Below are positions 1 through 42,435 of a stretch of DNA of 64,000 nt, piece by piece; positions within the stretch are counted from its first letter, which is position 1, and the number at the start of each line of letters is the position of its first letter. A program made the translations under genes and the position numbers. The notes under the pieces are model-generated. The model was given only the letters and a program-made list of their open reading frames with translations, was not told the origin of the DNA and did no database searches. Source of the DNA: Polaribacter sp. SA4-10 (GTDB lineage: Bacteria > Bacteroidota > Bacteroidia > Flavobacteriales > Flavobacteriaceae); NCBI RefSeq assembly GCF_002163835.1, contig NZ_CP019331.1, forward strand, positions 558,001 to 622,000, read 5' to 3'.

Positions 1-605
1 ATTATTGCACCATAACCGTTTGTTGAGCCGCTAGCCGTTGTGAAGTATATATGAGCGTCAGATGCCTCCATTAATTTACTTTTATTTGGACCATATATGT
101 TGGCATCTAAAGTGTCTAAAATTGAAATTGTACCCGTATTTATATCATAAGACCAAATTTTTCCATCATTACCCATACCTGTTATTTCACTAGTGGAATA
201 CAATAAACCATTAGTGTGAAGTAATGGGCTGATATTCTGCAAATACCCTGTCGGAGATAAATCATCGAAGTATTGTATTACTTGCAAATTATTTGTTAGA
301 GGATCAAATTCATAAAAAGAACCTGCCGCAAATACTGCTCCAGCATTAACAATTTGTCCATCAGAGTTTGTAAATCCGTAAAGCTTACCATTACCAGCTA
401 ATGTTAAACCTGCCGTGGGATTACCTCCAGTTGTGGTAGTGAAATCAAACAGTTTCTGAATGTTTTGACCATTTTGGTCAACTCTGTAAATAGTTCCTAG
501 ACCATTTGCTCCCCCTGCGAATGTGGTGCCATACATGTATTGTTGTGCGTTTACAATTACGCAAGCCAATAGACTAAAAATAATTGCCAGTGTTAGTTTT
601 TTCAT
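1..605 (-). CDS. Secreted GloVer-repeat protein, 3' end outside window
   Basis: The ATG lies at 605-603 and the frame stays open to the window edge, about 201 codons, so the C-terminus is missing. The N-terminus is a signal peptide (MKKLTLAIIFSLLACVIVNA followed by QQ). Mature repeats such as YGTTFAGGANGLGTIYRV and KLYGFTNSDG resemble the Gloeo_Verruco (GloVer) tandem repeat of secreted beta-propeller-like proteins. It is the sixth and outermost cassette of array A: its leading bases (649-658) follow directly on an attC-like site, and it shares the orientation of the other cassettes. A T9SS tail might lie beyond the edge. Function unknown. Confidence 0.7.
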   Translation of the reverse strand, partial: MKKLTLAIIFSLLACVIVNAQQYMYGTTFAGGANGLGTIYRVDQNGQNIQKLFDFTTTTGGNPTAGLTLAGNGKLYGFTNSDGQIVNAGAVFAAGSFYEFDPLTNNLQVIQYFDDLSPTGYLQNISPLLHTNGLLYSTSEITGMGNDGKIWSYDINTGTISILDTLDANIYGPNKSKLMEASDAHIYFTTASGSTNGYGAI

Positions 606-652
606 GTTTGTAGATTTTTTAATATTAATAAGTTTAGTTTTTTTTAATTAAT

Positions 653-787
653 ACCAACGGTTAGTATAAGAATAGTAGCGTGTTTACGTGCGAGGATTTT
701 CCGCAGGAAAATCAGACGTAGTAAACTTGCAACGACCTTTGGTTAAGCCCAAAATTGAGTGATTATTTTTATACATTGTTAGAAGCC
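653..787 (-). repeat. attC-like site 5 (integron cassette boundary)
   Basis: Imperfect palindrome of about 135 bp between two minus-strand genes, with inner arms around 696-712. Read on the minus strand it opens with GGCTTCTAAC (787-778) and ends with GTTGG (658-654). The opening bases are the exact reverse complement (10/10) of the bases that begin the same cassette at 1392-1401. That is the R''/R' complementarity expected of integron attC sites. It is nearly identical to the site at 4174-4308. Confidence 0.8.
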
Positions 788-788
788 G

Positions 789-1361
789 TTATTGAGTTTT
801 TTGAGATACTTCATTAGCCTTAAATTCAGCGAGACCTTGTATAGTTCCTTTAATACATTCACAAGGTGTTGGTCCTCCTTCCCAGGCATCTTCACAAGGC
901 TTTTCAATTATTTCTGGCCGATTCTGTTTTATCCAATCCTTTGCTTCATAGTATACGTCAGGATCATTTGACGATGTTTGAACAGATCTGATTTTTCTAT
1001 CTTTTATGATAATATGAAAAGTGTCTGTAACATTTAAATCTAATTGAAGTGCTTTCATTAGATCATCTTTTACTGTAACAGGACATATAACTAGAGAATC
1101 ATTTTTTTCTACACAGTCAGCACGATTTAATACTTCGTAATTTCCACATTCTGCCCATTTCTGATAATACAAAATAGAAGGATGTGATTTTTTAGCATAT
1201 GATAGCGATAATTTCAAAGAATCTTTATTAAATGAATAAAATGCATCAATAAACTTATTTGCTATTACAACATTATCGTTTTGGTGAATATTAATTTCAG
1301 AGTTAGTTCGATTTTTACATCCAATAAATATTAGAATAGATAAGTAAAATATTTTCTTCAT
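789..1361 (-). CDS. Cassette-borne lipoprotein of unknown function
   Basis: The protein has 190 residues from the ATG at 1361. A longer frame reaching 1436 is rejected because it would begin inside the neighbouring attC-like site. The N-terminus MKKIFYLSILIFIGCKN is a lipoprotein signal with cysteine at about residue 15, so a lipid-anchored envelope protein is likely. A C-terminal cluster of cysteines (EKPCEDAWEGGPTPCECIKG) could bind metal or form disulfides. No family was recognised. It is the only gene of cassette 5 of array A and nearly fills it; the stop lies one base from the R'' end of the attC. Confidence 0.75.
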   Translation of the reverse strand: MKKIFYLSILIFIGCKNRTNSEINIHQNDNVVIANKFIDAFYSFNKDSLKLSLSYAKKSHPSILYYQKWAECGNYEVLNRADCVEKNDSLVICPVTVKDDLMKALQLDLNVTDTFHIIIKDRKIRSVQTSSNDPDVYYEAKDWIKQNRPEIIEKPCEDAWEGGPTPCECIKGTIQGLAEFKANEVSQKTQ

Positions 1362-1395
1362 TGTTTTAATGTTTTTTGGTTTGGCCTTAATGGCT

Positions 1396-1530
1396 TCTAA
1401 CGTTGTTGTATATAATTTGTTGCGTGTTTCAAGCAACTAATTTAGTAAATAATTACGGACAAAGAAAGTCCGCGAGGACTTTCGCAAGTAGGCAATAAGC
1501 CAGCAATAAATCATATACGGTGCTAGCTTT
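1396..1530 (-). repeat. attC-like site 4
   Basis: Palindrome of about 135 bp with inner arms around 1468-1484. The minus-strand R'' (1530-1522, AAAGCTAGC) is complementary in 8 of 9 bases to the start of its cassette at 2226-2234. The R' end reads GTTAGAAGCC, which begins the next cassette. Closely similar to the sites at 2229-2363 and 38435-38569. Confidence 0.8.
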
Positions 1531-1542
1531 TAGTGCTTTATA

Positions 1543-1764
1543 TTACTCTAATTTCAGTTTCTTGTTTTTTCCAATGAATAAGTACATTAAAGAACCTATA
1601 AAAGGTATAAATATTACTACTAATATCCATATTAGCTTGTCATTTTGTAAGAACTTATTTTTTAAAATATCAATCAAACAATAAATCCAAAGTCCAATTG
1701 ATAAAAGTATTAAAGTTTGCCACACAAAAAGTCCGATTGAGAAGTCATTAATTAGATTATCCAT
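1543..1764 (-). CDS. Small membrane protein, PLDc_N domain
   Basis: The 73-residue protein has two hydrophobic segments (about 14-35 and 43-64) joined by LIDILKNKFLQNDKLIW. The second segment carries IFIPFIGSLMYLFIGK, typical of the phospholipase-D N-terminal-like domain (PLDc_N, PF13396). This is a two-helix membrane module often found alone in Bacteroidota and has no demonstrated enzymatic role. It is the second gene of cassette 4, behind 1894-2181. No ribosome binding site of the classical type precedes it. Confidence 0.75.
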   Translation of the reverse strand: MDNLINDFSIGLFVWQTLILLSIGLWIYCLIDILKNKFLQNDKLIWILVVIFIPFIGSLMYLFIGKNKKLKLE

Positions 1765-1893
1765 ATTTTTAGCTTTTTTTGGTATTCAAATTCAAATTTT
1801 ATTTTATTCAGTTCCGATTTTCTATTTCGCAGTTTTGTCAAATTCTGAACAGTAATTCAGTCAGTTTTTATAGTGCAATTCCAAAGTTATATT

Positions 1894-2181
1894 TTATTGT
1901 CCGTTTGAGTGATAATTCAGCGTATTTTTCCAATAATTAAAGTAAAGTTTTCCTGCTGCTATTGTTGAACCTATCATTAAAAAGTAAATCATTACATATT
2001 TTTTTTGAAAAAAACTTTCAGTAAATAAATCAGTTGTGCTTAATGTCAATAATAATAATCCTACAAACCACAATAATGTAAATAAAATCAAATTCTTTAT
2101 CGTTGGATTTTTTATGAAATTTCTTTTAACTGTTTTCATTTTTTTATTTTTATTGTCTGTTTTTCTTAATTTAAAATTCAT
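1894..2181 (-). CDS. Small two-helix membrane protein, cassette gene
   Basis: The frame encodes 95 residues; a shorter start at internal Met15 (MKTVKRNF) is equally plausible because the first 14 residues are very polar. Two transmembrane segments (about 30-50 and 60-78) follow a basic N-terminus. No family was recognised. It is the first gene of cassette 4, followed after 129 bp by the PLDc_N gene. The two may act together in the membrane, but nothing in the sequence shows how. Confidence 0.55.
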   Translation of the reverse strand: MNFKLRKTDNKNKKMKTVKRNFIKNPTIKNLILFTLLWFVGLLLLTLSTTDLFTESFFQKKYVMIYFLMIGSTIAAGKLYFNYWKNTLNYHSNGQ

Positions 2182-2228
2182 TTTTTTGTTTTAGAATTCC
2201 GATTTCGCAAACTTGCTAATGCATTAAA

Positions 2229-2363
2229 GCTAACGTTGTTGTATAAGCTTTGTTGCGTTGTTTAAGCAATGAATTTACTAAATAAAACACGAACAGCGAA
2301 ATTCCGAAGGAATTTCCCAAGTGAGCCAAAGCCAGCAATAAAGTTTATACGGTGTTAGCTACA
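2229..2363 (-). repeat. attC-like site 3
   Basis: Palindrome of about 135 bp with strong inner arms (GAAATTCC and GGAATTTC near 2298-2320). The minus-strand R'' (2363-2354, TGTAGCTAAC) matches the reverse complement of its cassette's leading bases (3384-3393) in 10 of 10 positions. It ends one base before the stop codon of the ABC ATPase gene. Confidence 0.8.
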
Positions 2364-2364
2364 G

Positions 2365-3024
2365 TTATTTTCTCAAGTAGCCTAACCTAATTAAATTAGT
2401 TTTTTCTTTTGTTAAATAAACCTTTTTATTAGCTACCAAGTAAATTTCATCACTTATATCCTTGATATGTTCATATAAATGGTCTGAAATTAATATTCCT
2501 TTTTTTTCTTTAGATTGAATAATTAAATTCTTGATTTTTTGAACGTGAACAGGCATAATTTGAGAAAAAGGCTCATCAAGTATTGCAAATTTTGATTCCG
2601 ATTTTAAAATGAGATATGTTTCAATAATTCTTCTTTCTCCTCCAGATAATGTTCCTAAACAATTCTTTGATATGTTTTTAAATTCTGGAAAATATTCTGC
2701 AAAATCAAAAAAATCTAATTTAAAAAAATTGAATACTGTTTTTATTTTTAGTTTTTTTGGAATAAAATTGTTTTGTGATAAATATAAGATATCTTTATTT
2801 GAAGGATTTTTATTGAAAAAAGAAACTTCGTTAATTCGTAAGGATTTTTCTCTTGGTTTGAGAGTTCCCATAATTATTTTGAACAAAGAGGATTTTCCCG
2901 AACCATTTCTTCCTAATACAGCTGTAATAGTTCCTGTTTCAAGTTTTAAATAGACATTGTTTAATATTTGATTATTTTTAACTTCAAATAAAACACTATC
3001 AATTTCTAATTTATTTTTTCTCAT
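2365..3024 (-). CDS. ABC transporter ATP-binding protein, cassette gene
   Basis: The 219-residue nucleotide-binding domain has Walker A GRNGSGKSS (about 37-45), ABC signature LSGGERR (about 127-133) and Walker B FAILDEP (about 147-153), followed by an H-loop candidate ISDH. The single domain is complete. Its ATG directly follows the stop codon of the 97-residue membrane gene 3025-3318, so the two are translationally linked within one cassette. The substrate is unknown; the tiny partner suggests a minimal or degenerate exporter, or an immunity-type ABC protein. Very low GC. Confidence 0.85.
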   Translation of the reverse strand: MRKNKLEIDSVLFEVKNNQILNNVYLKLETGTITAVLGRNGSGKSSLFKIIMGTLKPREKSLRINEVSFFNKNPSNKDILYLSQNNFIPKKLKIKTVFNFFKLDFFDFAEYFPEFKNISKNCLGTLSGGERRIIETYLILKSESKFAILDEPFSQIMPVHVQKIKNLIIQSKEKKGILISDHLYEHIKDISDEIYLVANKKVYLTKEKTNLIRLGYLRK

Positions 3025-3318
3025 TTAAGTTAATATTATCATTATAAAATAAATCATAAAGTCAAAACTAATAGTTGAAATCCATAAGTATTTTTCAGAT
3101 AAACCAAGGTTCTTGTAAAAAATAAATTCGTCTTTATATGAGTCATTTATAAAATAGTAGATAATTCCTAATGTAATTATTTTAAAGAATATTAGTATTG
3201 AAATTATTAATCCATTTCTTTCCCAAAGATTTATTAAATAACATAAAAATCCAGATATTATGATACTTGCTAATGCAAATGACTTATAAAAATAAAATAT
3301 TAAATGTATCTTTTTCAC
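3025..3318 (-). CDS. Small membrane partner of cassette ABC ATPase
   Basis: The 97-residue protein has three hydrophobic stretches (about 10-30, 36-55 and 78-96), consistent with three transmembrane helices. Its stop codon TAA is immediately followed by the ATG of the ABC ATPase, so the pair forms a two-gene cassette (cassette 3). It is too short for a full ABC permease. It could be a partial permease or a membrane anchor recruiting the ATPase. No family was recognised. Confidence 0.65.
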   Translation of the reverse strand: MKKIHLIFYFYKSFALASIIISGFLCYLINLWERNGLIISILIFFKIITLGIIYYFINDSYKDEFIFYKNLGLSEKYLWISTISFDFMIYFIMIILT

Positions 3319-3387
3319 TTTTCAGAATAGCTTTTTTTTAATTTATCTATTATTAATTACTCATTTTTGGAAATGAGTGGAATTGTA

Positions 3388-3456
3388 GCTAACGGTTAGT
3401 ATATGAAGTGTAGCCTGCCGATAGGCGGCTATGATTTCATATACATTGTTACCTGC
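3388..3456 (-). repeat. attC-like site 2 (short class)
   Basis: Short attC-like palindrome of 69 bp whose arms pair through TAGCCTGCCG/ATAGGCGGCTA at 3411-3431. The R'' (3456-3448) is the exact 9/9 reverse complement of the start of its cassette (4171-4179). The short class has 54-55 bp between core triplets, against 120-121 bp in the long class. Confidence 0.8.
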
Positions 3457-4151
3457 TGGCTTTTATTTTTTTCTTTCGTTAAGTTCGATAGAGTGAGAAG
3501 TCCACCTACCACCAATATTGCTCCGCCCACAAATGGGAATCCCGCTCCAACTAAGTCCGCCACATTAGAAGAGAACAAAAACGGTAAGCAAAATAGCATT
3601 CCAAATACTCCTGTCAAAACTGTTGCTATTGCAGCAAATTGAGTCAATTGTTTCATATTCATTAGTTTCATTTTTTGTCGCTTTGTTTTAGCCAATTCAG
3701 TTCTTAATTCACTAATTTGCTTGTATGAAAAGTCGTTAATTGTCCATTTTGATATTGGAATAGTTTGTCTTCCTTTTTTAAAGTCCGAATAGAAAGTCAA
3801 CCACAAGTCAGGAAGAAGAAGAGCACCGAAAAAGAAAATTGTGAATGAAGGAATTGAATAGTTTCCATTTCCAATCATAAATGCTTGCATTCGAATTTCG
3901 TCTTCCGCTGTCATTTTGTAATCAAGCAATACGTGCTTTAAGTCGTGACTTTCATATTTTGGCACAAGAGTCAATCGGTGGTCGTCCAAGCAATTTGCGA
4001 TTTCCTTGCCCAATGTCCCGTTTTCAAGTTTTCTTAATTCTTCAACTTGTTGGTGGTACTTGTCCATTTTACTGAAATACTCAATTGTCGAAACAGAAGT
4101 ATCAAATGAAACCTTAATTATTCTTCTTGCTATTTTCTGTAAAATGTTCAT
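3429..4151 (-). CDS. Coq4-like membrane protein, cassette gene
   Basis: The 240-residue protein has a central motif SHDLKHVLLDY (about 68-78) followed by acidic residues. This matches the HDxxH metal-binding signature of the Coq4 family, known from ubiquinone biosynthesis but also present as stand-alone proteins in Bacteroidota. Two C-terminal transmembrane helices (about 175-193 and 203-223) and a hydrophobic stretch at about 100-118 suggest membrane attachment. The coding region overlaps the R'' end of the downstream attC by about 28 bases. It is the sole gene of cassette 2. Function here is unknown. Confidence 0.65.
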   Translation of the reverse strand: MNILQKIARRIIKVSFDTSVSTIEYFSKMDKYHQQVEELRKLENGTLGKEIANCLDDHRLTLVPKYESHDLKHVLLDYKMTAEDEIRMQAFMIGNGNYSIPSFTIFFFGALLLPDLWLTFYSDFKKGRQTIPISKWTINDFSYKQISELRTELAKTKRQKMKLMNMKQLTQFAAIATVLTGVFGMLFCLPFLFSSNVADLVGAGFPFVGGAILVVGGLLTLSNLTKEKNKSQQVTMYMKS

Positions 4152-4173
4152 TCGCTCGTTGTTTTAGCTTGCA

Positions 4174-4308
4174 GGTAACGGTTAGTATAAGAATAGTTGC
4201 GGGTTTACGTGCGAGGATTTTCCGCAGGAAAATCAGACGTAGTAAACTTGCAACGACCTTTGGTTAAACCCAAAATTGAGCGATTATTTTTATACATTGT
4301 TGTGGTGC
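4174..4308 (-). repeat. attC-like site 1
   Basis: Site of 135 bp, almost identical to 653-787, with inner arms TACGTGCGAGGATTTTCC and GGAAAATCAGACGTAG (about 4207-4242). The R'' (4308-4299) is complementary in 10 of 10 bases to the first bases of cassette 1 (4703-4712). A spurious plus-strand frame at 4197-4382 runs through it. Confidence 0.85.
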
Positions 4309-4315
4309 GTTTTTT

Positions 4316-4693
4316 TTACCACGGTCTTTTTCCAATTCGTGATTCCATTGGGTTAGTTTTTAATTCGCCAGTATGTGCATAAACCTCAAAACTTGTACTA
4401 TCCCAATTCATTAATTTCAGAGTTTTGTCAGTCAGTTTTATTATTGAGGTATACGGTTCTGAAATTCCATTATATTCAATTCCGTTGTGAGTGAATTTAG
4501 TCAGTTTCTCAATCTGCCATTCTATTTTTCCGTCAGTATTTATTCCGTAAACATTTTCATTCGTAGTTGATTCATAATAATCAGTTCGCACGACTAAAAA
4601 CCCGTCAAAGTCAATCACTTCTTTTATTTCATTGTCAAATTCAAGCAATTTTTCGCCGATTTTAAGTTCCTTATTTTGAAATTTATACGTCAT
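4316..4693 (-). CDS. Hypothetical protein, first cassette of array A
   Basis: The 125-residue soluble protein has no signal peptide. It contains beta-rich repeats (VDFDGFLVVRT, GINTDGKIEWQIEKL) reminiscent of WD/beta-propeller blades as seen in PQQ-like or DUF-type proteins. No family was recognised. It lies next to the attI-like sequence, the position normally occupied by the most recently captured and best expressed cassette. Its ATG is 10 bases inside the cassette boundary. Confidence 0.65.
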   Translation of the reverse strand: MTYKFQNKELKIGEKLLEFDNEIKEVIDFDGFLVVRTDYYESTTNENVYGINTDGKIEWQIEKLTKFTHNGIEYNGISEPYTSIIKLTDKTLKLMNWDSTSFEVYAHTGELKTNPMESRIGKRPW

Positions 4694-4709
4694 TTCTCAA
4701 ATGCACCAC

Positions 4710-4751
4710 AACAATTGTATATGCGTATTGTTGATATATCGCATATATGTT
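4710..4751 (-). other. attI-like sequence, copy A
   Basis: A 42-bp sequence beginning aacaattgtatatgcg and ending catatatgtt is repeated with one mismatch at 41400-41441. In both places it lies directly upstream of the first cassette of an array, with the junction in the core triplet AAC. Here it abuts the stop codon of the integrase relic at 4752. It is read as the primary recombination site of the array, by position and conservation only. Confidence 0.65.
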
Positions 4752-4946
4752 TTATGTCATAAACTTAACGTTTTTCAGCATATTGTCCAAAGGACTTTCG
4801 ATATTTTTATTATTAATATAAATTGTTTTGGTATAGATTTCTGTAGTTTTCGGAGAGTTATGCCCTAGCATATTCTGTAAATACCTTAAATTTACATTGT
4901 TTTCTATGCAATGTGTAGCAAACGAATGACAAAATGGTGTGCGAGC
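4752..4946 (-). pseudogene. Tyrosine recombinase (integron-integrase-like) C-terminal relic
   Basis: The minus strand from 4946 to the TAA at 4754-4752 encodes about 64 residues. They include RTPFCHSFATH, NLRYLQNMLGHNSPKTTEIY and ESPLDNML, matching the C-terminal catalytic part of tyrosine recombinases: the HxxR box, LLGH, the Tyr nucleophile in EIYT, and the SPLD tail seen in IntI and related integrases. The conserved Arg of the LRHSFATH box is Cys (TGT for CGT), a couple of residues before it are missing, and a stop codon precedes the fragment. The enzyme is therefore dead and truncated. It points towards the array, the same orientation as the cassettes. Confidence 0.75.
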
Positions 4947-5127: not shown

Positions 5128-5610
5128 TTGAAATATATTGAAATCCTAATAAAGCTTCGTAAAATAATTCGTTCTATAAATCTTGAAAGTAAAAAGGTAG
5201 AAAAAGAATTAGGTGTTAGTATTCCACAACTTTTAGTACTTCAGTATTTATCTGACCAGCAAGACTATCGTGCCTTTGCTAAAGATATAAAAAGTTACAT
5301 CAATTTAAATGCGAGTACAGTTTCTGGTCTTATTTCTAGATTAGTAAGTAAAGGGCTGGTGGCTAAAGTGCCAGAACCCAATGATAAAAGAGCTGTTTTT
5401 ATTACGTTAACTGCCAAAGGTGCTGAGCTACTTCAGAAATCTCCAATAACGCTTCAAGAAAAATTATCAAAAAGGCTAAAAAAGTTAACCCCTATGCAGA
5501 TTGAAGAATTGAATAGGAATATAGAATTACTAACTTCTATAATGGAGGTTGAAGATTTAGATGCAGCTCCGTTACTTACTATTAAAGAGATGTCTGACAC
5601 TCCTAATTAG
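5128..5610 (+). CDS. MarR family transcriptional regulator
   Basis: The 160-residue protein reads from a TTG start at 5128; no in-frame ATG lies upstream. It has the winged-helix MarR layout: dimerisation helices at about 1-35, recognition helix in NASTVSGLISRLVSKGLV (about 68-85) and wing with the conserved PNDKRAVFITLT (about 92-103). MarR proteins bind DNA as dimers and are released by small ligands or oxidation. It stands alone between the integrase relic and a long non-coding stretch, so its targets are not evident from context. Confidence 0.85.
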   Translation: MKYIEILIKLRKIIRSINLESKKVEKELGVSIPQLLVLQYLSDQQDYRAFAKDIKSYINLNASTVSGLISRLVSKGLVAKVPEPNDKRAVFITLTAKGAELLQKSPITLQEKLSKRLKKLTPMQIEELNRNIELLTSIMEVEDLDAAPLLTIKEMSDTPN

Positions 5611-36407: not shown

Positions 36408-36515
36408 GTTGCTTTAGGACCATTTGGAATACCAGGAATTACTTTCTATTAAAGGTGATAGTCATTGCAACATTTATTAACAATTTCTTATTTACAAGAA
36501 ATAATATTTAAAAAT

Positions 36516-37508
36516 ATGAAAAATTATTCAGATGTTATTGGTATTGATGTATCTAAATTAACCTTAGATGCACATATTCACAACAGGGTGGTACACCGCG
36601 TATTTTCAAATACGCCTAAAGGGTACAAAGCACTTTTGTCTTGGACAGAAACGTACTTAAAAGAACAGGTTTATTTTTTCTGTTTTGAGAATACAGGACA
36701 TTACTCTACAAACCTTAGTGTTTATCTGTCAGAAAATGATTTAGATTACGTTGAAGAAAGCCCTTTAGCAATTAACCGCTCGTCAGGTGTTGTTAGAGGA
36801 AAAACAGATAAGCTTGATTCAGCTATGATTGCTAGATATGCTTGGCTTTACAAAGAAGAACTTGTTTTAAGTAGTCCAAAAGAACAAGATATTCAAGAAT
36901 TAGGACGCCTGTTATCCTTTAGAGATCAGTTGGTAAGAGACCGCACGGGTAAAATGAGTAGTCTCAAAGAAATGCAAACCTTGCTTAGCAGTCCATCAAC
37001 TGATGATTGCTGTAACATTATCAAAAAAACCATTCATTATCTTACAAAACAAATTATAGCATTAGAGAACCATATAAAAAACCTAATGAGTAAGGATGAA
37101 TCATTACAAAAGAATTATGAGCTTTTAAATACCTTAAAAGGCGTTGGATTAGTGCTTTCTTGTCAGCTGTTATATCACACGAGTAACTTTAAACGATTTG
37201 ATAGTTGGCGTCAGTTTTCAAGTTATTGTGGTGTAGCTCCTTTTGAGCACAGTTCTGGAACTAGCATACATCGAAAAAATAGAATTCATCACATAGGAGA
37301 TAGGAAGATGAAAACACTGTTAACACTAGCCAGTGTTAGTGCGATACAATGCGACCAAGAATTAAAACAATATTATAATAAAAAAGTTTCAGAAGGAAAA
37401 CCAAAAATGGTTGCTATCAATAATGTTAGAAATAAGATTTTATCAAGAGCTTTTGCAGTAGTAAAAAGAGGAACTCCTTATGTCGTATTACAAAAATTTG
37501 TAGCTTAA
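36516..37508 (+). CDS. IS110-family transposase (DEDD recombinase)
   Basis: The 330-residue protein starts at ATG 36516 (MKNYSDVIGIDVSK), preferred over an in-frame ATG 51 bp upstream because the family begins just before IGIDVSK. The RuvC-like DEDD residues are Asp in GIDVSK, Glu in FCFENTGHYS and the two Asp in KTDKLDSAMIARYA. The C-terminal Tnp domain has LNTLKGVGLVLSCQLLY and YCGVAPFEHSSGTSIHRK with the conserved Ser. The gene looks intact. Recombination by these enzymes is directed by a bridge RNA. Confidence 0.9.
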   Translation: MKNYSDVIGIDVSKLTLDAHIHNRVVHRVFSNTPKGYKALLSWTETYLKEQVYFFCFENTGHYSTNLSVYLSENDLDYVEESPLAINRSSGVVRGKTDKLDSAMIARYAWLYKEELVLSSPKEQDIQELGRLLSFRDQLVRDRTGKMSSLKEMQTLLSSPSTDDCCNIIKKTIHYLTKQIIALENHIKNLMSKDESLQKNYELLNTLKGVGLVLSCQLLYHTSNFKRFDSWRQFSSYCGVAPFEHSSGTSIHRKNRIHHIGDRKMKTLLTLASVSAIQCDQELKQYYNKKVSEGKPKMVAINNVRNKILSRAFAVVKRGTPYVVLQKFVA

Positions 37509-37547: not shown

Positions 37548-37670
37548 CGTATATGAAAAGTAGCAGATAGAAATGCTGTTAATTTTCAGGTTATGAAAAA
37601 AATAGCAGAAATAAACTAAACTTTAAGTTAAGCCATTAACTGCTATTTTTTATATACTATGTTAGCAAAC
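37548..37670 (-). repeat. attC-like site B3, right part
   Basis: The sequence resumes gtatatgaaaagtagc as in other attC sites and ends with the R'' gttagcaaac (37661-37670), which is the exact 10/10 complement of the start of cassette B3 (38431-38440). The inner arms aaaaaatagcag/ctgctatttttt (about 37598-37651) form a strong hairpin. Confidence 0.7.
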
Positions 37671-37677
37671 GTTATTT

Positions 37678-38394
37678 TTATTCTTTTATAAATTTAATTG
37701 TATTTCCGTTATCAAATTTCAAAAAGTAAATTCCGTTAGAGAAGTTTTTTATTGCAATTTCTCCATTATCAATTATTTTTCCTTTAATAATTTCAGTCCC
37801 TAAAACATCGTATACTCTAAAGTTTTCTCTATTTTTTAGACCAGAAATAGTTATAAAATCTGAAGCTGGATTTGGGTATATTTTTATTGCATTATTGCTG
37901 TTAAAATTTTCAACTCCTAGAGTACCTATTACAGCAGTAATCTCAACACCATAGAAACATTGTTGCGTTGAAGTTGATATTGATATCGTGTTAACTCCTC
38001 CAACTACATAAGCTCCAGCAATTGCTGGTGTAACCGTAATAGAAATATTTTTTGTAATATTTGGGTTAGATGCAATTGACTCACAAGCACAATTGGTTCC
38101 TGTAGTTGTTCCAGTACCAACAGAAACATTGTTAAGAAAAACTTCAAAATCCCCATTACAAGCATCATATACGTCCATGTCGATTGCAGTAAGTGTCCCT
38201 GAAGTATTTGTGTCAGTAAAGGTTCCGACATTAATTGCAGCACCTGCTGAGATGCAAAGAAATGGATTGTCTATTCCTGTATTTGCAGAGCAATTACCTG
38301 AACCTGATGCATCAATGATGTAGGTTTGAGCTTGTGAGAAGCTTGTTAATAAAATACAGAAAGTTAAAATTGTTTTAAAGTAAATTTTTTTCAT
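37678..38394 (-). CDS. Secreted T9SS protein, cassette gene
   Basis: The 238-residue protein has signal peptide MKKIYFKTILTFCILLTSFSQ (split here; about 1-22), then a Cys-containing beta domain (GNCSANTGIDNPFLC, TGTNCACESIA, QQCFYGVEI) and a T9SS sorting tail (about 165-238; IKIYPNPASDFITISGL ... NTIKFIKE). The cassette therefore carries a complete exported protein addressed to the host's own type IX system. No binding function is evident. It is the only gene of cassette B3. Confidence 0.8.
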   Translation of the reverse strand: MKKIYFKTILTFCILLTSFSQAQTYIIDASGSGNCSANTGIDNPFLCISAGAAINVGTFTDTNTSGTLTAIDMDVYDACNGDFEVFLNNVSVGTGTTTGTNCACESIASNPNITKNISITVTPAIAGAYVVGGVNTISISTSTQQCFYGVEITAVIGTLGVENFNSNNAIKIYPNPASDFITISGLKNRENFRVYDVLGTEIIKGKIIDNGEIAIKNFSNGIYFLKFDNGNTIKFIKE

Positions 38395-38434
38395 TGGGTT
38401 AAAGTTTAATTATTAATATTTGGTTTTAATGTTT

Positions 38435-38569
38435 GCTAACGTTGTTGTACAAGATTAGTTGCGTTGGTTAAGCAATATATTTACTAAATAATTACTGACA
38501 AAGAAAATCCGCGAGGATTTTCGTAAGTGAGCAAAAAGCAAGCAATTAATTTTGTACGGTGTTAGCAAC
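38435..38569 (-). repeat. attC-like site B2
   Basis: Long-class site (121 bp between core triplets) with inner arms aaaatccgcgaggatttt (38504-38521). R'' gttagcaac (38561-38569) is the 9/9 complement of the cassette start at 39104-39112. Confidence 0.8.
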
Positions 38570-39079
38570 TGTTTTATTCTCGATTATTTGACGTCTATTT
38601 ATAATAAATAAGATTCCAAACTGCCATAATCCAATTGCAATGAATAAAGGATAAATCTCTAAACCAGATAAAACCTCCTTATATGTCGCAATAATTCCGA
38701 TAATAATTCCAAGAATATAATCTATGGGTTTGAATCTTAATTTCGCATTTAGTTGAATAATTATTAAAGAAAGTAATCCTCCAAATCCACCAAGAGTTCT
38801 ACTTCTAAACTCTAATAAGATTTCAGAGTTTTTAGTTGCGTACATAAGTGTTAAATAGAATGATATACATAGACATACTACAAGTAATAGCCCAGTTTTT
38901 TCCTTTAATGCCTTTTTCAAGGCAATTGCAATTCCAATTCCGAAGAATAATCCAGGAAAGTATAGCATTAAGATAAACAGTCCATCGTTCGTTTTTTCTC
39001 CGATAAACGTCAACAATAGATATAGGACTGTGACAATTCCGCCTATAATTAGAGTTCTATATTTATGTTTTAAATGCAA
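38546..39079 (-). CDS. Polytopic membrane protein, cassette gene
   Basis: The 177-residue protein is read from TTG 39079 (LHLKHKYRTLIIGG). The ATG at 39136 is rejected because it lies beyond the cassette boundary, inside the neighbouring attC. It has five or six hydrophobic segments with short loops. The C-terminal codons overlap the R'' end of the attC. No family was recognised; a single-gene cassette. Confidence 0.65.
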   Translation of the reverse strand: MHLKHKYRTLIIGGIVTVLYLLLTFIGEKTNDGLFILMLYFPGLFFGIGIAIALKKALKEKTGLLLVVCLCISFYLTLMYATKNSEILLEFRSRTLGGFGGLLSLIIIQLNAKLRFKPIDYILGIIIGIIATYKEVLSGLEIYPLFIAIGLWQFGILFIINRRQIIENKTVANTVQN

Positions 39080-39106
39080 AGTTGGTCGTTTTTTTTTGTA
39101 ATTGTT

Positions 39107-39174
39107 GCTAACGGTTTGTGTATGGTGTCGTAGCATCCCGAAGGGTGCTATGCACTATACACGGTGTTAGGCAC
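39107..39174 (-). repeat. attC-like site B1 (short class)
   Basis: Short site (54 bp between core triplets) with the hairpin tagcatcccgaagggtgcta at its centre. R'' gttaggcac (39166-39174) is the 9/9 complement of the cassette start 41394-41402. The stop codon of the TOPRIM gene is embedded in R''. Confidence 0.8.
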
Positions 39175-40042
39175 TGACTTTTCTGTATTTTAATTCCAAT
39201 TCGGTAAATAAATTATATGGTCTTAAAATCTCATTTTCAATTGATAAGAATACAGCTCTAGTGAAAGTTTTCAAAGTAAAACTGTATGTGTTTTTTATCT
39301 TTTTTATTAAATTAAAGAAAAATTCTAAAAAGTCTTTTCCGTGTATAAATAATCTAGATTCATTTAGCTCTTTATATTTTTCCTTAACAAATTTGATTTC
39401 TTCTTCAAATTCTATTTTTTTATTTAAACAGTTATTCTTGTTAAGGAATTTATGCAAAACCTCTACTTGATTGTATGACATAGAACCCTGTGAATATTGA
39501 AAAACTTTTTCAGGTTGGATTAATTGATAGCTACAATTAATTTTTTCACGTGCATATCTTAAACAAAAGTTGTCAACTAAAATGGGTGTTAATGTTTTAA
39601 TGACTTCTACAGAAGATAATGGGAAGTTTTTTAATCCAATTTTTAGAATTTTATTCAAACTTTTTTCATTAAATAAGTACATTTCTAAATTTGCGAAATC
39701 AGTATAGGATAGATATGGATTAGAGTCAGCGTCTTCTTTTAACGTTTCAAAATCTTTATCTATAATGCAGGTAACATTTTTAAGTGAATCGTTAAATTTT
39801 TCGTGTATTTTTTTTGATAGAAATAATACTTTTTCGCGATTTGATAAGAGATTTATACCTACATCAGAAAAGTCAATAATATCTATTGGGTAAATTTGGA
39901 CATCGTTAATTGAATGACATTCAAGGAATAATTCAAAAATATTGGCATCTTCAGGACCTTCTATAAATAAATCTTTACTCTTAGGTTCTAGTTCAAGCAA
40001 GGCTAAATGTTCACTTAATTTTCTTTTGTAATTTCCTGCCAT
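39167..40042 (-). CDS. DUF4435 TOPRIM-like protein (AriB-like, PARIS defence)
   Basis: The 291-residue protein has the TOPRIM-type motifs LFIEGPEDANIFELF (about 25-39, catalytic Glu) and TCIIDKDFETL (about 90-100, DxD). This is the arrangement of DUF4435, the nuclease component AriB of the PARIS anti-phage system. AriB is held by the AAA ATPase AriA and released by phage anti-restriction proteins, then cleaves host tRNA. It starts 3 bp after the ATPase gene and shares its cassette. Identification rests on motif order, size and pairing. Confidence 0.65.
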   Translation of the reverse strand: MAGNYKRKLSEHLALLELEPKSKDLFIEGPEDANIFELFLECHSINDVQIYPIDIIDFSDVGINLLSNREKVLFLSKKIHEKFNDSLKNVTCIIDKDFETLKEDADSNPYLSYTDFANLEMYLFNEKSLNKILKIGLKNFPLSSVEVIKTLTPILVDNFCLRYAREKINCSYQLIQPEKVFQYSQGSMSYNQVEVLHKFLNKNNCLNKKIEFEEEIKFVKEKYKELNESRLFIHGKDFLEFFFNLIKKIKNTYSFTLKTFTRAVFLSIENEILRPYNLFTELELKYRKVSA

Positions 40043-40045
40043 AGT

Positions 40046-41371
40046 TTAATCTTCTAATTTTACAACATTATTAGTATTTGGTGCTAATAGTTCAATAGAA
40101 TGAGTTGCAATTATGAATTGAACATTGTTTTTTGAACTAAATTTTAATAATGTCTTTAAAAGCATTCTTTGCCATTTAATATTTAAAGAAATTTCAGGTT
40201 CATCTATAATAAAAATTGTCGCTTTGTCTGTTGCAGTTATCGTATTTATAAATAAAAGTAATAATTGCTTTTCACCCGAAGATAACATTTGAAGGTGAAG
40301 TGGTTCTCCTGACTTATGCTTGATAGAAAATCCTCTAGTTAGATTGAAAGACAATGTTTTATTAGTATAGAAATCGTTTATAGCATTTATAAAATCATTA
40401 ATTACGTCATATAGACCTTGAAGAGCATCTAATCTTGCATTTGTACTATTAACAAATAATTGGATAATACCTGGTAGAGATCCTTTATTTTCGATACTAA
40501 TTGATGAAATAGAACTTTTTAGTTCTTTAAAATCTAATGAATCAATTAACCCTATTTCTGAAAGTTTTTCGCTTTGTTTTTCTAAAACATTTATTTTCTT
40601 TATCAACTGATTTAGAGGTGGTATTTTTTCTTTAGGTTTATCAACGTTTTTTATTAATTCACTATAAATATGCAGAGTATTAGTTTCTCCCACTTTTGAA
40701 CTTTGAATAACTTGTTTTCTAATCCAATCTATAAATCTTTCAACAGTTAATTCAAGTGATAATCTTTTTTCGTTAAGATATTTCTTAGTTCTTATTTTTT
40801 CATACCTATTTGAAAGTTCAATGTCTGATGTGTTGGATAAAAACCCTATTTCGTCATCGTGGTCACTTGAGTCTTGACTACTTAAAGTTTTTCGATCCTC
40901 TGAAAGAAAATAAATTGAAATATTTAAGTCCTGAATAAAGTCAAGAAATTTTCTGAATTCAATATCTTCAGGAGTAAAAGGTTCAACTTGAATTTCGTGA
41001 GTATTTTTTGCTGCTTTTAACTCAATTTTTCTAAGAAAACGACCACCTTTCTTAATATAATAAGTGTATGAACCAATAACAGATTTTGTTCTTGACGCTC
41101 CGATTTCAATTCCATTTGTAAGCTTTATTGAAAATAATTCAAATTTAGTTTGTGCTAGTTTAGTCTTATAACCACTTCTGTCTTTTGTTGATAAAAGATA
41201 AAAAATTAGATTTAAAACAGTTGTTTTACCTGCACCATTATCTCCGTAAAGAATAAAGAGCTTATTCAACTCTTTAATATCACCTTTCTTAGGAAGGTCA
41301 TAGTTGTAATGTCCAAATAACTTGTTGACTTTTATTGCTTTTATTCCTATTCCTGTATTTATTTCTGTCAT
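40046..41371 (-). CDS. AAA/ABC-type ATPase (AriA-like, PARIS defence)
   Basis: The 441-residue ATPase is read from ATG 41371 (MTEINTGIGIKAIKVNKLFG). The frame extends further upstream through the attI-like site, but that part is outside the cassette. Motifs: Walker A LYGDNGAGKTT (about 35-45), ABC-like signature LSSGEKQLLLLF, Walker B TIFIIDEPEISL and a His switch IIATHSIELL. The middle is a long helical insertion. ATPases of this type pair with DUF4435 proteins in PARIS systems. It is the first cassette after the attI-like site of array B. Confidence 0.7.
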   Translation of the reverse strand: MTEINTGIGIKAIKVNKLFGHYNYDLPKKGDIKELNKLFILYGDNGAGKTTVLNLIFYLLSTKDRSGYKTKLAQTKFELFSIKLTNGIEIGASRTKSVIGSYTYYIKKGGRFLRKIELKAAKNTHEIQVEPFTPEDIEFRKFLDFIQDLNISIYFLSEDRKTLSSQDSSDHDDEIGFLSNTSDIELSNRYEKIRTKKYLNEKRLSLELTVERFIDWIRKQVIQSSKVGETNTLHIYSELIKNVDKPKEKIPPLNQLIKKINVLEKQSEKLSEIGLIDSLDFKELKSSISSISIENKGSLPGIIQLFVNSTNARLDALQGLYDVINDFINAINDFYTNKTLSFNLTRGFSIKHKSGEPLHLQMLSSGEKQLLLLFINTITATDKATIFIIDEPEISLNIKWQRMLLKTLLKFSSKNNVQFIIATHSIELLAPNTNNVVKLED

Positions 41372-41399
41372 TTTTTTTAGTTTGTGCCTAACAATTGTA

Positions 41400-41441
41400 T
41401 ATGCGTATTGTTGATATATCACATATATGTTGTACGTTTTA
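41400..41441 (-). other. attI-like sequence, copy B
   Basis: Identical to 4710-4751 except for one base (A for G at position 31). It borders the first cassette of array B. No integrase relic was recognised in the flanking 41442-41600, though low-level similarity to the 3' end of the relic may remain. Confidence 0.65.
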
Positions 41442-42435
41442 AAATTAACTTTTATTCGCTTATCGTTCTTTTTTGTCCGGATAAACGGAAGTTTATGTTT
41501 TATAATAATTTGTTTTATTAGAGCAAAAGATATCTGTTGGTACCTATAAATTTTGCGGTTTACCACAATTATACATGTGGATTACCGCAAAGATTCTTGT
41601 TTTTTTACAGTAATTTATACTCTAGTTCTAACTGAAGCTGTGTATACTTAAAAATACAATGTGCCAATCTACTTGTTTTAAGTATAAAAATATAGCGTAT
41701 TAATACCCTTTTTTAATGAGGTAGATCTAAAAAAACAATAATTGGGTTTTCAGAAAAAGTAGACGTTGTTAAAGAACTATTATAAGAATAGCGTTTTTTG
41801 TATACCGATTACATATTGTTTCTGGTCGCGTAGGGATTTGGTTTGTAACTGTAGTATCTCAAATTCAAGGAAAGTTGCGTACAGATTAAAATACTTATGT
41901 CTGATATGATATATAAATAGCCGTGAAATACGGCGATGGTTTAAGGAAGCTTTTAATAATGAATCATTCACCGGATAATCCATCATTAAAAATGTATTAT
42001 AATGTGCTGCGTAGAGCCTGTCCCGAACTTGATTCGCGATTACTTTGCTTTGGGTTAAAGCGCCATTATTACTTCAAATTTTCTTTTATTTTTTTCTTCT
42101 CAAATCTTTCTTTAAAATCTTAATGGAATAGACTTTTTACAAAACGACGTAGGAGGGAAGCGTAATGTGTGGAATAGTTTGTTTAACTCTGGTGAATTGA
42201 GGTGCACTAGCTATGGCTTTACTATGAAGTATCCATGCAGTAACTAAGGAGTAATCATTGTTTCATAATTATTGTCATTAAAAATTATATTACACATTTA
42301 CATTATTTAGCATTTTACCAAACAATAAAAAACTAACTATATATTCAATTTATTATTTCAAGTTCAAATTTGAGCCCCATCTGCAGCGGTCTTATTATAT
42401 CTTTTTAACATTAAAATAATATTCCCCTTGAAATA
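41442..42435 (+). repeat. Intergenic region with composite repeat family 2
   Basis: About 41918-42175 carries family 2 landmarks: ccgtgaaatacggcgatgg, tttaaggaagctttta, gagcctgtcccgaacttgat and ggagggaagcgtaatgtgtg. It is related to 25862-26215 and 48530-48990. Short open frames here are not supported as genes. The remainder is AT-rich. Confidence 0.55.

Follow-up and report, generated by a model that had tools for sequence, protein, structure and literature searches.

A 64,000-nucleotide stretch of the chromosome of Polaribacter sp. SA4-10 (NZ_CP019331.1, positions 558,001 to 622,000; hereafter the window) was found to carry two arrays of cassettes resembling those of integrons. Array A lies on the minus strand at window positions 659–4740 and comprises an attI-like site, five complete cassettes and five attC-like sites. 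Array B, at 37549–41420 in the same window, has the same attI-like sequence. The genome is a single contig of 3.44 Mb on which four arrays were traced, with A and B in the window and C and D elsewhere, and the attI-like sequence was found at four places in the stretches examined. Arrays C (genome position 1187588 upward) and D (491491 downward) each lie beside an intact copy of a tyrosine recombinase gene and the same attI-like site; arrays A and B retain recombinase remnants only. A preliminary description of array A, made from the sequence alone, had proposed an integron-like array with six attC sites. Five of these are indeed attC-like, while the site preceding the first cassette is attI-like.

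Re-reading of the strand bore out both the five cassettes on the minus strand and the complementarity originally reported for their ends, namely GTTGTGGTGC/GCACCACAAC at 10/10, GTTACCTGC/GCAGGTAAC at 9/9, GTTAGCTACA/TGTAGCTAAC at 10/10, GTTAGCTTT against AAAGCTAGC at 8/9 and GTTAGAAGCC/GGCTTCTAAC at 10/10. Over 15 cassettes traced in the four arrays of the genome (a comparison which omits three sites cut by insertion sequences), the two ends of the same cassette match on average at 9.5/10 positions. Mismatched ends average 5.3/10 and reached nine or more in 6/210 comparisons, and the end of a cassette compared with the start of the next gave 3–8/10 matches (11 comparisons). As the own-cassette match is far above that of mismatched or neighbouring ends, the ends are cassette-specific, as had been claimed, and ordinary dispersed repeats are ruled out by this property. 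It had also been suggested that the same cassettes be looked for in a different order in other Flavobacteriaceae genomes; a homologous cassette was found with different neighbours in another array of the same chromosome. Cassettes A3 and C3 both encode an ABC ATPase and share 95% identity over bases 1–1050 of 1159, beyond which the middles of their attC sites differ. A 92% copy of cassette D6 was found in the stretch past the window start, where array A probably continues, because an attC-like match lies further on at genome positions 555276–555347. No cassette of this genome was detected, at the threshold used, beside the 87% identical recombinase of one relative (G063).

The limits of the cassettes are also visible where platforms, that is recombinase gene or remnant plus attI-like site, are compared with each other. 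Platform C shares 95.7% identity with platform D over 2064 bp and 97.3% with platform A over 221 bp, both homologies ending at the GTT of attI, and 89.9% with platform B over 79 bp, ending two bases past GTT. Two platforms of Galbibacter orientalis are 96.3% identical over 2263 bp and diverge one base past GTT, both cassettes sharing the G, and for two platforms of one Bacteroidia genome the homology ends within a few bases of GTT. One scan of named genomes gave 137 recombinase relatives, and the loci of the best 80 of these formed an 80-locus set with titles from Flavobacteriaceae, genera of Cyclobacteriaceae, Saprospiraceae, Bacteroidales, Marinilabiliales and others. The exact sequence TATACNNNTGTT was present near the end of the recombinase gene in 55/80 loci, compared with 1/1517 random control stretches of the same length. 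A loosened pattern, fitted to sites seen by eye and probably wrong in a few placements (L079, L091), places an attI-like site immediately after the 3' end of the gene in 76/80 loci, and two of the four loci missed are cut by a contig end. The contig breaks off exactly at GTT in three cases and two bases past it in a fourth, which would fit a single attI joined to different cassettes within the sample. Among the platforms with at least 500 bp downstream (59 relatives and the four of this genome), the 9 bases from GTT have an exact complement downstream in 54/63, compared with 120/3858 (3.1%) for words taken from other loci and 2/63 for reversed words. Base +10, counted from the G, is an A in 71/71 loci, a position to which no search pattern extended.

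The intact recombinase is a protein of 370 residues, its two chromosomal copies (that of platform C at genome 1186445–1187554) being 98% identical to each other, and the remnant frame of array A is nearly identical to its end. A domain search of the whole genome detected this remnant by PF00589 at window 4827–4928, and at 4779–4934 it matches positions 264–315 of TIGR02249. By identity, the best named match of the recombinase is from Polaribacter filamentus (93% over part of the protein). The score of the recombinase with the integron-integrase profile is 177 bits, the cut-off being 265, and a profile search found no IntI over the family cut-off anywhere in the genome. The protein is without the insert of ~42 residues that characterizes IntI, with residues 207–245 of the solved IntI4 having no counterpart in the alignment. 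The distance from the beta-strand lysine motif to HxLRH is 107 residues in 10/10 measured IntI (11 rows) and 64–67 residues in 34/43 measured new recombinases (50 rows), the other nine values (118–315) having the look of motifs misplaced by the regular expression. We take the I2 helix of IntI to lie within this insert. On its sequence, the recombinase is not an IntI, and a canonical IntI as the recombinase of these arrays was rejected on the lack of any IntI over cut-off in the genome together with the missing insert. Among solved structures a Xer-like protein matches the recombinase best, and the score against NCBIfam XerA_Arch is 180.9 bits, below the cut-off of 220. A tree of 63 proteins puts IntI on a long branch of its own, and the new recombinases all lie to one side of a branch whose support is 66; with an outgroup of two Xer rows only, the tree does not resolve one origin from two. 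A HARP domain at the N-terminus was matched in 3/30 members (E 0.025 at best), too weakly to be claimed.

Walking along the arrays yielded 118 attC-like sites, 74 of them confirmed by the next complement, and analysis was confined to the 114 whose arms are strong. The arm beside the R part pairs over ~16 bp and is set off by a spacer of 3 nt on one side in 71/114 sites and of 5–6 nt on the other in 88/114. In 39 trimmed and aligned sites, picked for clean arms (which favours pairing), both sides had changed in 15/20 pairs, a level attained in 0/500 shuffles and low when the alignment was slid. Mismatches in the top-strand arms are strongly skewed, with 220 A.C and 16 C.A vs. 11 G.T and 8 T.G. 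Among 93 ungapped sites, A stands opposite C in 60 at stem position 12, in 52 at position 7 and in 22 at position 8, and each such mismatch is a G.T pair on the bottom strand. The bottom strand was the more stable in 106/114 sites, by a mean of 2.5 kcal/mol, compared with 146/340 random windows of the same loci. The original walk selected sites by the arm energy of the bottom strand, a possible bias which was ruled out as the source of the preference, since it persists in 63/66 sites chosen by complementarity alone and in 82/90 chosen by top-strand energy. The site attC A2 of the window gave fold z-scores of -4.4 (bottom) and -4.5 (top). Canonical attC sites of the same phylum, obtained from 5 of 14 IntI loci and including two near-copies, have a bulge in the 5' arm in 12/12 cases. 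Bottom-strand G.T pairs being allowed in both sets alike, 61/114 of the new sites have no bulge and 24 have a 5', 22 a 3' and 7 a symmetric one. As a rule, the new attC sites are without the extrahelical base of canonical attCs (L'' arm).

Pairing of the R stem was found to continue past the 9 bases used to identify it. Within the same cassette it is present at position 9 in 85/121, at 11 in 107/121, at 12 in 110/121 and at 13 in 90/121 cassettes; position 10 is an A in 121/121, opposite a C in 102/121 (G.T on the bottom strand). Between array neighbours, position 11 pairs in 65/116 and position 12 in 50/116. As own-cassette pairing goes beyond neighbour pairing at positions 11–12, the R stem of ~14 bp, leaving aside the A.C, is complete within a single cassette only, i.e., in its circular form. 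The 76 doubly confirmed sites fall into length classes differing by steps of ~64 nt, with six of 63–72 nt, two of 92, 56 of 133–139, one of 181, ten of 197–204 and one of 348.

A covariance model, the check put forward for array A at the outset, was built from the 39 sites and fits them. In the 64-kb window it gave seven matches, every one of them on the minus strand and inside array A or B, five of the seven sites having belonged to the training set. Both model matches and a reshuffled gene were obtained, the reverse of the outcome (no match, genes never reshuffled) named beforehand as speaking against an integron-like array. On the 80 loci (1.05 Mb), from which 31 of the 39 training sites come, there were 69 matches; every one shares the strand of the recombinase, and 66 lie downstream of it. 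No match was found in 205 kb of canonical IntI loci, and no Rfam family reached its gathering score in the window. A search of the whole genome with the model gave seven matches, to short-loop sites only, and forms no basis for a genome-wide count.

A partner gene encoding a zinc-finger protein of ~115 residues with a CxxC...FCSxxC motif was identified in 65/80 loci, 58 of which supplied the profile used. It is divergent to the recombinase in 65/65 and lies within ~220 bp of its start in 57, with the others up to 3.3 kb away. It was found at 1/18 loci of a class sample and 0/14 canonical IntI loci, and Pfam gave only a weak treble-clef match for the protein. Two distant homologues (31 and 36% identity) are encoded in the genome of SA4-10 (2427128–2427454 and 2496660–2496923), and their 3-kb surroundings contain no match to the attC model.

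The recombinase family is widespread in Bacteroidota. In a genus sample, 29/78 genomes gave a match at E 1e-60, mostly with no more than 34–45% identity. Pattern search placed an attI-like site, often ATATAACNNGTT, right 3' of the gene in 27/28 loci fetched from this sample. The complement test was positive in 12/22 of its loci (two of them close relatives) with ~1.4 kb available, compared with 4/450 controls, and an attC model trained without these loci found 16 sites in them, all downstream and all in recombinase orientation. In a sample of the class Bacteroidia, the family was present in 66/197 genomes and canonical IntI in 1/197. From the class list 18 hits were picked by hand, mostly intact and with room downstream. 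Among the 16 with enough sequence, a complement was found in 10 by a looser test (control 46/240), nine of these having an attC-like continuation by eye. Since the complement was found in only part of the distant loci, proof of being a cassette platform does not extend to all distant relatives. In a sample of the phylum, canonical IntI exceeded the cut-off in 70/247 genomes, and of the 71 genomes matched one belongs to Bacteroidia. This figure far exceeds the one complete integron, that of Salinibacter ruber, which the available part of the IntegronFinder 2.0 report names in Bacteroidetes proper (PMC9024848), the phylum being perhaps drawn wider here.

Relatives were also encountered on plasmids and sites in a phage. 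On two Acinetobacter plasmids (L169, 2028–4178; L170, 4516–6537) a truncated recombinase relative is followed by an attI-like sequence and then by what looks like the start of a cassette, with tet(X3) or tet(X5) immediately after. Downstream of tet(X3), a site like the 5' arm of attC matches the cassette start at 7/10 positions (by eye), and neither plasmid stretch has an attC model match or an exact complement downstream of the attI-like site. A full tet(X3) cassette was not upheld, as no exact complement is present downstream, and the sequence context gives only a hint that the gene may be a cassette; these contexts may be of relevance to the origin of such genes. On two Chryseobacterium plasmids, which have no attC model match, the recombinase relatives share the attI-like sequence up to GTT and then differ; one of the plasmids has, downstream, an IS110 transposase as well as the gene of a group II intron. 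The lytic Polaribacter phage P12002L has seven matches to the new attC model, five at E below 1e-5. An attC of this phage, which may or may not be among the matched sites, recombines with IntI1 according to the part of PMC9892861 available.

Taken as a whole, these features indicate that the arrays are very probably cassette-capture platforms which work like integrons using a recombinase other than IntI. The integron-like nature of array A is thereby strongly supported. The IntI-type reaction first proposed is not, given that there is no IntI over cut-off, no IntI-specific insert and usually no extrahelical base. The anatomy, the boundaries, the strand bias and the missing insert are established as properties of the sequences. 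In the usual platform a zinc-finger gene stands divergent to the recombinase gene, the 3' end of which carries an attI-like site, and cassettes follow in the same direction, each ending in an attC-like hairpin with a two-part folded arm. The recombinase would bind the bottom strand of attC folded as a hairpin and join it, without I2, to double-stranded attI at GTT. The G.T pairs at position 10 of the R stem and at positions 7/8 and 12 of the L stem may select the strand, replacing the extrahelical bases. A free circular cassette is expected to be a better substrate than the same cassette within an array, because the ~14 bp R stem is fully matched only within one cassette, and insertion would thereby be favoured. 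The zinc-finger protein may act as a recombination or regulatory cofactor.

Several observations weigh against this interpretation. The recombinase is assigned to these attC sites by its position, and recombination of cassettes is read from sequence, with neither circles nor a pair of strains with and without a cassette having been seen. A complement was not found in 9/63 platforms, and positions 0–8 of the stem are defined by construction through the 9-nt words. The tree leaves the new family unseparated from IntI (support 66). Site attC A2 folds slightly better on the top strand (-13.6) than on the bottom (-13.0), and a 5' bulge is present in the alignment of 24 of the 114 new sites. The partner gene was not found in 15/80 loci and is rare in the divergent set (2/26).

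Three other explanations were considered. The arrays could be remnants of ordinary integrons, i.e., clusters of attC sites lacking integron-integrases (CALIN), which are served by a canonical IntI elsewhere and lie beside an unrelated recombinase. The shared AAC/GTT ends and the presence of canonical IntI in the wider phylum would fit this, as would the Polaribacter phage attachment sites tested with IntI1, at least one of which recombined (PMC9892861, in the part available). It is nevertheless very unlikely. No IntI exceeds the cut-off in this genome and, in the class sample, one genome holds IntI compared with the 66 that hold the other recombinase; the 5'-arm bulge of all 12 canonical attCs is found in about a fifth of the new sites; the new model is silent in canonical loci; and homology between platforms stops at the attI beside the new recombinase. 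A notion even harder to credit is that recombinase and attI form the terminus of an independent mobile element which inserts beside the repeats by chance, since the cassette-specific complement begins at the attI-like site in 54 of the 63 platforms and model matches lie on the attI side in 66/69 cases. In its favour it has the duplication of platforms as units (2064 bp here and 2263 bp in Galbibacter) and a truncated relative beside an IS91-family transposase on an Acinetobacter plasmid.

It is also conceivable, though improbable, that the recombinase joins double-stranded sites as do Xer or Xer-exploiting elements, and that the hairpins are merely inverted binding sites. This explanation predicts no strand bias, and the skew of A.C over G.T mismatches and the preference for the bottom strand, including that in the 63/66 sites chosen without energies, are contrary to it, as are the mostly unequal spacers (3 nt vs. 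5–6 nt). It does account for the missing I2-type insert and for a Xer-like protein being the best match of solved structure, and the available part of PMC7790495 ties single-strand recombination to I2. Apart from these three alternatives, we lean with moderate confidence to a broader proposal, i.e., that they represent a second integron superfamily across Bacteroidota, with capture of hairpins by a recombinase that never had I2, choice of strand by G.T pairs, an R stem of ~14 bp complete only in the circle and often a zinc-finger cofactor. Single-strand recombination of cassettes would then have arisen twice or predate I2.

Table 1. Features of arrays A and B (positions in the window; R1, attC covariance model).
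Feature	Position	Strand	Remarks
Tyrosine recombinase gene, 3' remnant	4752..4934	minus	stop codon 4752–4754, 11 bp before attI of array A
attI-like site, array A (GATATATCAACAATACGCATATACAATTGTT)	4710..4740	minus	homology to platform C stops at GTT
Cassette A1	4180..4712	minus	125-aa protein of unknown kind
attC A1	4171..4307	minus	137 nt; R1 49.6 bits; in training set
Cassette A2	3394..4179	minus	240-aa protein, weak family matches only
attC A2	3385..3456	minus	72 nt; R1 38.4 bits; outside training set
Cassette A3	2235..3393	minus	97-aa protein and ABC ATPase; 95% identical copy in array C
attC A3	2226..2362	minus	137 nt; R1 58.7 bits; in training set
Cassette A4	1402..2234	minus	two small proteins, one with PLDc_N
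attC A4	1393..1530	minus	138 nt; R1 52.1 bits; in training set
Cassette A5	659..1401	minus	199-aa protein without Pfam match
attC A5	650..786	minus	137 nt; R1 46.0 bits; in training set
attI-like site, array B	41390..41420	minus	preceded by last bases of recombinase gene only; 79 bp homologous to platform C
Cassette B1	39113..41392	minus	AAA ATPase and second protein, resembling AriA/AriB of PARIS anti-phage defence
attC B1	39104..39174	minus	71 nt; R1 49.8 bits; outside training set
Cassette B2	38441..39112	minus	196-aa frame, no family
attC B2	38432..38569	minus	138 nt; R1 57.2 bits; in training set
attC B3, 5' part	37549..37670	minus	L' box interrupted by IS110-family element

The content of cassette B1 looks like a PARIS defence pair by profile matching (Table 1), with the AriA- and AriB-like genes side by side at window 39167–41566 and PADLOC E-values of 8.7e-28 and 8.8e-12, respectively. 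The ATPase matches 81 families, with AriA best, the scanned frame starting upstream of attI. Adjoining the recombinase remnant of array A is a gene for a MarR-family regulator (5128–5610, plus strand). At the other end of this array, which probably continues past the window start (window 1–658 and genome 555276–558000), the next gene resembles, by eye, the gene after the last traced attC of array C (stretch L024, about 4630 on). The open reading frame at 36465–37508 (plus strand), beside the cut attC B3, encodes an IS110 transposase. All three IS110-family elements found inside attC-like sites of this genome are at the same point of the L' box, following CATATAC or CATACAC and before GTATTCC (window 37548 and two in stretch L021, minus strand index 7353 and 15670).

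The system shares with canonical integrons (IntI, attI, and attC; class 1, Vibrio, Salinibacter) an attI beside a tyrosine recombinase, directional arrays, sites bounded by AAC...GTT, complementary ends within a cassette, hairpins which fold (as computed) and attC-like sites hit by an insertion sequence. It differs in its recombinase, which has no insert and scores below the integron-integrase cut-off, in sites usually without an extrahelical base and with fixed A.C (bottom G.T) positions, in an attI at the 3' end of the gene and in the zinc-finger partner gene. The R box of a canonical attC is 7 nt long, compared with the R stem of ~14 bp here. Insertion sequences of the IS1111-attC group target attC sites, a habit which the IS110-family elements of this genome share in lying at one place inside attC-like sites in 3/3 cases; the host sites here, however, are of the new kind. 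With XerC, XerD, and XerA the recombinase has in common that it is a tyrosine recombinase without I2, from which it differs by an additional N-terminal part of ~85 residues, its own attI and its cassette arrays. In the integrons of Treponema, the recombinase gene is transcribed toward attI, along the direction of the cassettes (PMC3607928, part available). The new recombinase gene likewise reads toward attI in the direction of its cassettes, unlike Treponema, however, in not encoding an IntI.

Surveys of the IntegronFinder type recognize integrases by a profile of the IntI-specific domain (PMC9668308, in the part available), and the portion of PMC8352920 consulted lists attC models for 11 taxa, Bacteroidota not being among them. 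No report of the system was found in the literature searched, outside which lay most subscription papers and all preprints, and this is not proof of absence. Standard searches for integrons would miss the system in many Bacteroidota and, because 66/197 Bacteroidia genomes hold the new recombinase compared with 1/197 with IntI, mobile cassettes in large numbers may have escaped counting. A large group may have it as its principal cassette system. Cassette capture has been described as requiring the I2 helix, and this helix as occurring in no other protein (PMC7790495, part available), and a natural cassette system without it would make the evolution of single-strand recombination directly testable. 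Compared with the canonical integron, of which the IntI-specific insert is the defining feature, the system described here is without that insert while, as far as its sequences indicate, working like one.

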